DNA of 64,000 nucleotides from Candidatus Aminicenantota bacterium (GCA_017886205.1 JAFNEO010000045.1:1-64000); one strand, 5' to 3'. Counted from the stretch's first letter, positions 3,103 through 6,311 are shown. The notes: generated by a model from the sequence alone, not told the origin. Made by a program: numbers and translations.

Positions 3103-4059
3103 ATGAAAAAAACCGGAAATATTGTGTATGGCTTGGCCGTATTGGGTTTGGTCTTTCTCGCCCAGGGCCAGGCGTCTCAACAAACCCAGCCGACCCAACA
3201 GGCGCAGCCGCCCCAATACCAGCAGCAGCCCTCGCCCATAACGCTCGAGAAGATCGCCGATAGTATCTACCAGGTCAAAGGCGGAAGCGGCGCCAACGGC
3301 GGTGTCATCATCGGCTCAAAGGAGATCATGGTCATCGACGCCAAGATGAGCCAAGAATCGGCCAAGCAGATGCTCGCCGAGATCAAGAAAATTTCAGCCG
3401 TGCCCATCGGAATTCTTGCCTTTACCCACAGCGACGGCGACCATGTCAACGGGATCACCGGCTTTCCGGCCGACATCAAGATCTTCGCCCAGGAGGAGAC
3501 GAAGCACTACATGGATGAGGCCTTTAAGGACGAAAAGCAGAGGGCTTATCTTCCCCTGATCAAAACCTTCGCCTCAGGGGGCCCTGAATACGACTTGGGC
3601 GGCCTGAAAGTCCAGCTCCTCTATTTTGGACCCGCCCATACGAGCGGCGATGCCGTCGTCTTCTGCCCCCAAGAGAAAGTCGCTTTTCTTGGCGACCTCT
3701 TCTTCGCCGGCCGGGACCCGCTCGTCCATCGCCATAAAAACGGGAGTTCGTTTGGACTGGTCAAGGTGCTCAACTCTGTGCTTCAACTTGATGCCGAAGT
3801 CTTTCTCAGCGGACACGCCGAAAAAGCCACCCGGTCCGACGTCGAAAACCTGATCAAGTCGATTGAGGAAAAGCAGGCCCAGATCAAGGCCATGATCGCC
3901 GAGGGCAAGCCTCTGGACGAGATCAAGAAGTTCTACAAAGTCGAAGACAGGCCGGCGGGACCGGGACGGCCCCAATTTCTGAGCCTGACCGAGGTGATCT
4001 ACCTGGAGATCATGGAAAAGCAAATAAAACTACGCCCGAAAAGCCATAATGATCACTGA
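3103..4059 (+). CDS. Secreted MBL-fold metallo-hydrolase
   Basis: This 318-residue metallo-beta-lactamase-fold hydrolase has an N-terminal signal peptide (about residues 1-23) followed by a Gln/Pro-rich linker, so it should act in the periplasm. The metal site reads THSDGDHVNG, an HxDxDH variant of HxHxDH. Later ligands appear as GPAHTSGD, FLGDLFF and FLSGHAEK. The architecture resembles subclass B1-like MBL proteins, but the His-to-Asp change makes a true beta-lactamase doubtful, and the substrate is unknown. AGGAGG lies 5-6 nt before the start. The gene overlaps the 3' end of the opposite-strand fusion gene by 7 bp. Confidence 0.85.
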   Translation: MKKTGNIVYGLAVLGLVFLAQGQASQQTQPTQQAQPPQYQQQPSPITLEKIADSIYQVKGGSGANGGVIIGSKEIMVIDAKMSQESAKQMLAEIKKISAVPIGILAFTHSDGDHVNGITGFPADIKIFAQEETKHYMDEAFKDEKQRAYLPLIKTFASGGPEYDLGGLKVQLLYFGPAHTSGDAVVFCPQEKVAFLGDLFFAGRDPLVHRHKNGSSFGLVKVLNSVLQLDAEVFLSGHAEKATRSDVENLIKSIEEKQAQIKAMIAEGKPLDEIKKFYKVEDRPAGPGRPQFLSLTEVIYLEIMEKQIKLRPKSHNDH

Positions 4060-6311
4060 GCGGTGGCCCTTGGGATCACCTCCCCAGTGAAAACAAAGTA
4101 ATCATAGACGAGACGGGCGATCTCGGCGATAATCCTCTCCACATCTTCGGCTTCATCCTCGGAGTCTTTGGTGAAGACGGTGAGAGCCACATGTCCGAGG
4201 CCGTCGGGAAGAGTGATAATCCCCGTGTCGTTAAATGTGCCCGCGATCGTCCCCGTCTTATGGGCGACGGGTGTCCCCGGCGGCAGCTCTCCCTTGATCC
4301 GCCCCTCCCCTGTCTGGCACTGGAGCATGATGGAGAGGATGAGGTCGCAGCTCTCCGGATTGAGGATCTCCTTCTTATAGATCTTATCCAGGAGCCGGTT
4401 CATGGCCGCCGGCGTGCTCTGATCCCGGGGGTCCAGGATGAACTTCCGTCTGGATTCACGCCTGGCTTCGGGGCTTCGTTCGGGCGTCTTCCGGGATTCG
4501 GCTTCGATTTGTTCGAGGGTCAATCCCCTGTATTTTTGATAATCCACGCCCATCCAGTCCATAATCAATTCCTGGCACGACCTGTCGACCGAGATGCCCT
4601 CGACCCCGTACTGCCTGAGGCGTTTGTTGACATTCTCCGCACCCACTTTGGCCAGCAGGACGTCGGTGGCCGAGTTATCGCTGATCATCATCATCAAGTT
4701 GATCAGGTTCCGGACGGTAAGCTTGATCCCCGGCGCAGTCAGGCTGGAGAGCATACCGCTTCCCAAGTGCTGGTCGGTCTTCTGGACGCTGACTTCGTCG
4801 TCGAGCGAAAACCGGCCCTCCTTGACCTGGGCCATAACCTCGACCAGGACGGGCACCTTGAAGGTGCTGGCCATGGGAAAGGGACTCCCGGCATTGAGCT
4901 CGAGACCCTGCCCGGACTCGAGATGCCTGAGCGCAACACCCACCTCGCCTCCGGCCCTCTTGATGACGCCCTCGATGCGCCTTCGCAGACGGTCGATGCG
5001 ACCGTTGGGCGGGGCTGCGGCCAGAGCCGGTTTCATTTTGTCGCCCGGCGCTTTCTTTTCGTCCCCTTTCATTTCGGCCGGCGGCTTGAACTCAAACTTG
5101 ATCGTCAGCTCTTTGGCCTCCCCGTTCCGGAGAAACCGGAACTTCGCTTCCCCATCCCAGGGTATGCCGGCCAAGTAGGTCCGCATTTCATTGATATCGG
5201 AGAAGCCGCGGCCATCGACGGACAGTATCACATCTCCCTTCTCGATGTCGGCGCCGAGCGCGACCCCGTCGATCGGCTTCCTCTCGATGACAATATTATC
5301 GAGCCCGTCCACCTTCTTGAGGGCGAGGCCGACCGCTGGATTGGCCGAACGCTCCTGTTCGGAAATCCCCCAGACGAAGTCGGCGAAGCTCCCGGAAACG
5401 GCCAGGCTGCGCTCATCGGCCGCCACCTCGACGGCCACGACGGTCCGGAAGGGCATCCGGTTCCTCTCGAATACCCGGCGATTGATACCCAGGTTGTAGA
5501 GAAGATGTCCGGACCCGGCCAGGACGATCATCTTTCTTTTCCCCTTTTCTGCGCACCTAATGGCATTGGCCGCCATGACCTCATCCCAGGCCGACTGCGC
5601 CCGGTACAGCCCCTCGAACATCTTCTCCAAGCCTTCCCCTTTCATGGCGTGGGGGATCTCGCTTGACTCGAAGATCGTCCGGATGAGCGTTCGGTGGTCC
5701 TGATCGGAGAAGTCGGGCCGGGAAACCAGAGCTTTTTCCTCGTCGGAGAGGCCTTCCCAGCCTTTCATCCTTATTTTGGTGATGACCTCGCGGGGCGCGT
5801 TGAGGCCGAAGACCGGGATCTTATTATCCCTGGCAAAATCGAGGATCTTCTCGTAGTAGCCGTAATTCATGCTCCAGTTGACATACCATCTCACTTCACG
5901 GATGAGGTCGTCCTTGGAGAGGAGTCCCTGGCTCCACTTGTCCAGGGCCGGCTGGGTCTCGGCGGGCAGCATCTCCAAGCCTATGGCGATATTCGGGTCT
6001 TGGGTGAAGAGGCCCTGGATGACTTTGAGCTGAATGTCGTGCATGGCCATGTTGTCGTGGCTTTCCCCGACGTATACGAAGCGGCTGTCGTTCATCTCCT
6101 TGATCATTTTTTCAAAGGGCACCGGTTTTCCGGTGCGGGCCGAGACAATCCCGCCGGAGGTAACTTGGATGACCTTGCTTTTAAGCTTGGCGTCACCGAT
6201 CGCCAGGCGGAGTGTCTTGTCTTCTCCTTCCGCTTTTTCCTGGCACAAGATGGCGGTTGAAACGAGTGCCAGCAATACGAAAAGAACAAAGGCGGCTCTT
6301 TTTCTGAACAT
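4053..6311 (-). CDS. ChaN-like / PDZ / class A beta-lactamase-like serine hydrolase fusion
   Basis: This 752-residue exported protein has three parts. Residues 1-23 form a signal peptide. Residues about 65-300 form a ChaN-like (haem-binding, DUF399-type) domain with VGESHDN at 81-87 and LAGSGH at 264-269. Residues about 325-408 form a PDZ domain. Residues about 440-745 form a class A beta-lactamase/transpeptidase-like domain with Ser482-xx-Lys485 (STFK), Ser544-Asp-Asn546 (SDN) and Lys685-Thr-Gly (HKTG). The omega-loop region reads VDRSCQELI. Aligned with DRxEPELN, the deacylating Glu166 position is Cys579 and the Asn170 position is Ile583, followed by an insertion of about 35 residues before DPRDQSTPAAM. 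The ATG at 6311 has GAGGAGG upstream, so the TTG one codon earlier is unlikely. Function is not known; antibiotic hydrolysis is doubtful. Confidence 0.88.
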   Translation of the reverse strand: MFRKRAAFVLFVLLALVSTAILCQEKAEGEDKTLRLAIGDAKLKSKVIQVTSGGIVSARTGKPVPFEKMIKEMNDSRFVYVGESHDNMAMHDIQLKVIQGLFTQDPNIAIGLEMLPAETQPALDKWSQGLLSKDDLIREVRWYVNWSMNYGYYEKILDFARDNKIPVFGLNAPREVITKIRMKGWEGLSDEEKALVSRPDFSDQDHRTLIRTIFESSEIPHAMKGEGLEKMFEGLYRAQSAWDEVMAANAIRCAEKGKRKMIVLAGSGHLLYNLGINRRVFERNRMPFRTVVAVEVAADERSLAVSGSFADFVWGISEQERSANPAVGLALKKVDGLDNIVIERKPIDGVALGADIEKGDVILSVDGRGFSDINEMRTYLAGIPWDGEAKFRFLRNGEAKELTIKFEFKPPAEMKGDEKKAPGDKMKPALAAAPPNGRIDRLRRRIEGVIKRAGGEVGVALRHLESGQGLELNAGSPFPMASTFKVPVLVEVMAQVKEGRFSLDDEVSVQKTDQHLGSGMLSSLTAPGIKLTVRNLINLMMMISDNSATDVLLAKVGAENVNKRLRQYGVEGISVDRSCQELIMDWMGVDYQKYRGLTLEQIEAESRKTPERSPEARRESRRKFILDPRDQSTPAAMNRLLDKIYKKEILNPESCDLILSIMLQCQTGEGRIKGELPPGTPVAHKTGTIAGTFNDTGIITLPDGLGHVALTVFTKDSEDEAEDVERIIAEIARLVYDYFVFTGEVIPRATAQ

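Follow-up and report, generated by a model that had tools for sequence, protein, structure and literature searches.

Organization of the locus

The window analysed here, meaning the whole stretch of 64,000 nucleotides, belongs to a draft genome of 3.5 Mb (G000) that is close to Candidatus Aminicenantes UBA8522. A gene on its minus strand encodes, as a sequence-only reading had recognised, a ChaN-like domain, a PDZ domain and a penicillin-recognising serine hydrolase in one apparently exported protein of 752 residues, and this organization is borne out by the open reading frame, the leader and three Pfam matches above their cut-offs. The gene and its parts are as follows:

4053..6311, minus strand: whole fused gene, 752 amino acids plus stop (orthologous fusions in G002 and G003)
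6240..6311, minus strand: signal-peptide-like N-terminal hydrophobic helix, residues 1-24 (sequence; helix 2-24 in the model)
5472..6107, minus strand: ChaN/TIKI domain, residues 69-280 (PF04187 over the same residues, 190 bits, Pfam cut-off 27.7; closest solved structure 2g5g, E 1.3e-8)
5088..5324, minus strand: PDZ domain, about residues 330-408 (PDZ_2 at 351-405, 28.9 bits, Pfam cut-off 27; HtrA/Deg-like PDZ matches; strands and helix in the model)
5004..5075, minus strand: linker forming the fusion joint, residues 413-436, predicted to be disordered and weakly constrained (pLDDT; identity to G003)
4086..5003, minus strand: class A-like penicillin-recognising serine hydrolase, residues 437-742 (PF13354 at 458-714, 195 bits, Pfam cut-off 22; model pLDDT 93.6)

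The PF04187 match places the N-terminal domain within the ChaN/TIKI superfamily profile. In the full-length model the domains are predicted confidently and their overall arrangement is uncertain (pTM 0.61), with pLDDT below 50 at residues 416-435 of the linker, where identity to the G003 fusion is 12% as against 65% in the hydrolase; the two halves look in the model like separate modules on a string. Reading the leader as that of a lipoprotein was rejected, because in the G002 and G003 fusions it neither ends in Cys nor contains a lipobox.

The hydrolase-fusion protein is present at one copy per genome here. The same genome encodes a second PF13354 protein of a different type (L003, G000:C57:46-864), with R-G-V-E-D at the omega loop and SSN replacing SDN. 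Within the window, the fused gene converges with a plus-strand metallo-beta-lactamase-fold gene (3103-4059), the 3' ends overlapping by 7 bases (4053-4059). Literature on Aminicenantes and peptidoglycan, and on ChaN-PDZ with a serine hydrolase, yielded no account of the fused protein.

Origin of the fusion

The join of ChaN-PDZ to the hydrolase is found in three related species, G000, G002 (the UBA8522 record) and G003, the latter two proteins being 86% and about 60% identical to that of G000, respectively, and dN/dS against G002 is about 0.16 over the whole gene. We therefore reject an assembly artefact and regard the fusion as genuine. Considered by part, dN/dS against G002 is 0.10 for ChaN, 0.19 for PDZ, 0.12 for the hydrolase and 0.33 for the linker, such that every domain of the fusion is under purifying selection.

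The three domains had been described as normally separate. This holds for the hydrolase, the joining of which is unusual, and fails for ChaN and PDZ, which are combined in a single protein both in the Aminicenantia examined besides G000 and in the EreA-ChaN-like PDZ proteins, where ChaN (Haem-binding uptake, Tiki superfamily) and an HtrA-like PDZ occur together with no serine hydrolase attached (PMC6411480). PDZ-ChaN proteins have already been described as an uncharacterised family with no assigned function (PMC6411480), and the novel part is thus the join to the hydrolase only. Two further candidates for ChaN-PDZ fused to other sequences, both long open reading frames of high-GC genomes, were discarded: the extension in G319 is low-complexity sequence that looks out of frame, and the matching frame in G364 is shorter than it first seemed.

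The link between ChaN and the hydrolase, which had been left unexplained, has a ready context in related genomes, where the two genes adjoin and are followed by an M14 zinc carboxypeptidase gene. In G039 and G009, ChaN-PDZ, hydrolase and M14 are separate neighbouring genes in that order; G015 and G001 have the hydrolase and then M14 at contig ends, and G003 has the fusion and then M14. ChaN-PDZ is followed by a same-strand M14 gene in 18 of the 37 loci with enough sequence. This gene pair is conserved in Aminicenantia (L012, L013, L015, L019, L020, L022, L036-L039 and others). Two observations count against reading these genes as a set: M14 does not adjoin the fusion in G000, where the rest of the genome holds a weak homologue only, and many Aminicenantia have a hydrolase gene that is not linked to ChaN-PDZ. 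G039 has its M14 gene between the hydrolase and the metallo-beta-lactamase-fold neighbour, so that the gene was probably lost from that position, between the fused gene and its neighbour, in G000. The simplest history is a merger of adjacent genes from one operon. In the hydrolase tree G003 does not lie beside G000 and G002, at a weak node, which makes two mergers, or one merger with later splits, possible.

The hydrolase lacks the class A general base

We gathered relatives of the hydrolase domain across Acidobacteriota and aligned 40 orthologues. The positions that bear on its chemistry are:

4857..4868, minus strand: STFK, residues 482-485 (S70, K73), with nucleophile Ser482 and Lys485 (S and K in 39 of the 39 orthologues covering the site)
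4674..4682, minus strand: SDN (S130-D131-N132), residues 544-546 (sequence, orthologue alignment)
4575..4577, minus strand: Cys579 at Ambler 166, the general base Glu in class A (Cys 20 and Thr 20 of 40; TLA-3 and LRA-5 alignments)
4563..4565, minus strand: Ile583 at Ambler 170, Asn in class A (Ile in 40 of 40)
4557..4559, minus strand: Asp585, candidate alternative base (Asp 32, Glu 2, Asn 6 of 40)
4425..4562, minus strand: extended omega loop, residues 584-629, predicted to be helical (46 residues against 8 in TEM-1; model helices)
4251..4259, minus strand: KTG (K234-T235-G236), residues 685-687 (sequence, orthologue alignment)

SxxK, SDN and KTG, the Ambler class A motifs, are present as first claimed and kept across the orthologues. 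The omega loop reads R577-S578-C579-Q580 with I583 and D630, and R577 and D630, equivalent to the R164-D179 pair, occur in all 40; Glu166 and Asn170 of class A are replaced by Cys579 and Ile583. Glu is found in none of the 40 sequences at position 579. As 166 is Cys or Thr and 170 is Ile throughout, the missing Glu is, to judge from these columns, a fixed trait of the family and not a change in one protein. An omega-loop insertion had also been noted; the insertion stands and its size of about 35 residues does not, the 46 residues between Ambler 170 and 179, against 8 in TEM-1, giving about 38. Its length differs among orthologues and none of its columns is invariantly acidic. The 40 orthologues show no alternative conserved Glu in the omega region (position 581 is Glu in 11 of them), in keeping with the view that the general base is missing. 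Asp585 is the sole well-conserved acid of this region besides D630.

The assignment of Cys579 to residue 166 depends on the alignment register. Ungapped phmmer alignments set it opposite Glu166 of TLA-3 (ISIKATEEEM) and opposite Val166 of LRA-5 (IVSTVRE), residue 166 of LRA-5 being Val in the published account (PMC12777564), and MAFFT with TEM-1 also puts it at 166. Profile alignment by hhalign with TLA-3 or TEM-1 instead opens a gap directly after R577. We adopted the first register, with the insertion after 170, because a long-loop homologue in G476 has R-Y-E-G-D-I-N directly at the C579 site; neither register places a conserved Glu on 166. An AlphaFold2 model of the hydrolase domain built with 43 homologues (mean pLDDT 93.6) has Cys579 at the start of a helix and the insertion forming further helices. 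Foldseek with this model ranked LRA-5 first (2.4e-25), followed by class A enzymes of the A2 type, and PBP-A too was among the matches.

The ChaN-PDZ half

Thirty-nine ChaN-PDZ homologues were aligned, and the 2His/2Glu set of the ChaN/TIKI superfamily (E83, H85, E113 and H269) is conserved across them:

6057..6068, minus strand: GESH motif, residues 82-85 (E83, H85), first half of the 2His/2Glu set (GE and H at least 95% among the 39 homologues)
5973..5975, minus strand: E113 of GLEM, third member of the set (homologue alignment)
5505..5507, minus strand: H269 of GSGH, fourth member of the set (homologue alignment)

The same set is common to TIKI/erythromycin-esterase hydrolases (PMC6254334). 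Because the domain keeps these residues, the view that it must be a haem module is unsupported, and a hydrolase would be at least as good a reading. The residues would also be compatible with haem binding, since Campylobacter ChaN (PDB 2g5g), which has the same domain (E 1.3e-8) and, unlike the present protein, is a single-domain lipoprotein, one that binds haem, also carries GExH, LEM and GSxH.

Relatives joined to D-aminoacylase homologues

In three other Acidobacteriota of the Thr branch, G418 (L088:3169-5991), G459 (L100) and G461 (L101), the Glu166-less hydrolase is itself fused to a D-aminoacylase-like amidohydrolase. In G411, G302, G297 and G099, also of the Thr branch, it adjoins a D-aminoacylase-like gene, that of G411 matching solved D-aminoacylases at 5e-62. 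Class C-type serine hydrolases (PF00144) lie close by in several other loci. Going by what is known of their families, the substrates of these partners are D-amino-acid compounds or peptides. The linkage to D-aminoacylase homologues lies in the Thr branch, outside the class of the G000 protein, which counts against extending it to that protein.

The presence of the hydrolase is patchy, PF13354 being absent from the complete relatives G010 and G024. When plasmids were searched for near relatives, nothing came up but serine hydrolases and ordinary class A enzymes, about 30-33% identical. The serine hydrolase encoded by one plasmid gene, L124 (NZ_CP107961.1, Streptomyces sp. NBC_00376), carries a Cys-Cys pair close to 166 along with a long loop; immediately upstream of L124 is a gene for a further serine hydrolase domain.

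A predicted D-peptidase rather than a beta-lactamase

Glu166-less relatives of class A enzymes are already known in PBP-A and LRA-5, to which the present family adds a variant. LRA-5 (PDB 8eo5; PMC12777564), a class A-like protein from a soil metagenome, is the best match by sequence (E 1.5e-40) as well as by fold and has SxxK, SDN and KTG with Val in place of Glu166. It differs in its 31% identity, in having neither the long loop nor ChaN-PDZ, and in grouping with the Glu166 clade (98-100 support) and not with the Cys/Thr family. Its turnover of beta-lactams is below 0.05 per second for most substrates (PMC12777564). PBP-A of Thermosynechococcus elongatus (Tll2115, PDB 2j7v; PMC11189452) likewise combines the class A fold with a residue other than Glu at the 166 site (Leu158; sequence match E 6.7e-24); it is a single domain, 23-24% identical over the aligned structures, and has been described from cyanobacteria only, whereas the hosts of the present family are Acidobacteriota. 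It is a DD-carboxypeptidase and endopeptidase, not a beta-lactamase (PMC11189452, PMC3394801). Both proteins are acylated by beta-lactams and turn them over very slowly (PMC11189452, PMC12777564), which favours, by analogy, the earlier suggestions of an acyl-enzyme that deacylates slowly and of a peptidoglycan-directed enzyme rather than one of resistance.

On balance, we favour a reading in which the hydrolase is a PBP-A-like acyl-serine D-peptidase, fused to a probable TIKI-type hydrolase/PDZ module and belonging with M14 to a peptide- or peptidoglycan-degrading set. It is based on the acylation motifs kept in all orthologues together with Cys or Thr at 166 and Ile at 170, on LRA-5 as best solved match with PBP-A also among the matches, on the linkage of ChaN-PDZ, hydrolase and M14 and the D-aminoacylase fusions and neighbours, and on dN/dS of 0.10-0.19 in each domain against G002. 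The C-terminal domain would be secreted and act on D-amino-acid substrates in the manner of a DD-carboxypeptidase/endopeptidase: a D-Ala-D-X type bond would acylate Ser482, aided by Lys485, Ser544, Asn546 and the KTG strand, and water or an amine acceptor would then free the acyl-enzyme, either slowly or by a route independent of Glu166, as in PBP-A. A natural peptide would be turned over whereas a beta-lactam would remain on the enzyme for a long time, and negligible beta-lactam turnover is expected by analogy with LRA-5. ChaN-PDZ would be a probable second hydrolase of TIKI/erythromycin-esterase fold, its PDZ domain holding a peptide end. In Aminicenantia, ChaN-PDZ, hydrolase and M14 zinc carboxypeptidase would then form a set degrading peptides or peptidoglycan fragments, two genes of which would have merged into one exported protein in the fusion-bearing family. 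The substrate, the activity of either domain and their sharing of one substrate are what we infer; peptidoglycan as a common substrate for M14, ChaN-PDZ and hydrolase is a guess.

Among other explanations, the one we would give most weight, unlikely as we judge it, is a low-molecular-weight PBP that remodels the cell's own peptidoglycan, with ChaN-PDZ as a targeting or regulatory module and no role in peptide salvage. PBP-A, which acts on muropeptides, is named a PBP (PMC11189452), and the predicted export and single copy per genome would suit such a role; the absence of PF13354 from complete relatives and the linkage to D-aminoacylase homologues, which points to catabolism, speak against it without being decisive. 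Distinctly improbable, in our estimate, is a genuine if unusual beta-lactamase that relies on a different general base, for which Asp585 in the omega helix would be the most plausible candidate. That position is acidic in 34 of 40 orthologues, and the fused protein passes the NCBIfam class A beta-lactamase model NF033103 (211 bits, curated cut-off 200), as does the G418 fusion (219). However, the remaining six orthologues have Asn at 585 with all else kept, the solved Glu166-less relatives have no useful beta-lactamase activity (PMC12777564, PMC11189452), and the neighbours are peptidase or D-amino-acid genes, not resistance genes. We think it very unlikely that the missing base marks a binding protein or dead enzyme, given that every orthologue retains Ser, Lys, SDN and KTG and that selection is strongly purifying. 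Least probable of all is the beta-lactam sensor or trap suggested earlier: a long-lived acyl-enzyme would be expected without Glu166, but the leader is the only transmembrane-type segment, the protein has no signalling domain, no recognisable regulator or resistance gene adjoins it and the family's neighbours are hydrolases.

Relationship to class A beta-lactamases

We computed two maximum-likelihood trees that included LRA-5 and were rooted on distant PF13354 paralogues. Glu166 sequences and LRA-5 form one clade in both (100/99 support in the second), and with this rooting the clade lies among Thr-type sequences; the AU test weakly rejects a topology in which the Cys and Thr types stay together (p 0.034). 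The base of the tree is weakly supported, the outgroup branches are long and the root is not fixed, so that the nesting of the Glu166 clade among Thr types is a hint only. The G476 homologue (L115, G476:C235:23808-24716), which combines the long omega loop with Glu166 and Asn170 and groups with LRA-5 (98-99 bootstrap), may represent an intermediate linking the Cys/Thr family to true class A enzymes. The family's position around the Glu166 clade and this intermediate form raise the speculative and rather doubtful idea that the Glu166 class A beta-lactamases branched from D-peptidases of which the Cys/Thr166 family of Acidobacteriota is a surviving group.

Implications

A large uncharacterised family thus passes the NCBI class A model without the residue required for beta-lactamase activity. 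As judged from the sequences, annotation pipelines can label what is probably a peptidoglycan or D-peptide hydrolase as antibiotic resistance, and resistance surveys of soil and subsurface genomes would miscount the family. The gene fusions and neighbours give a lead to the substrate, D-amino-acid peptides, and the uncharacterised ChaN-PDZ family is now tied to a peptidase gene set. Natural variation among Cys, Thr and Glu at a single catalytic position offers material on the rise of beta-lactamases from peptidoglycan enzymes, and if the Glu166 enzymes did branch from this family, its members would be living relatives in which that origin could be studied.
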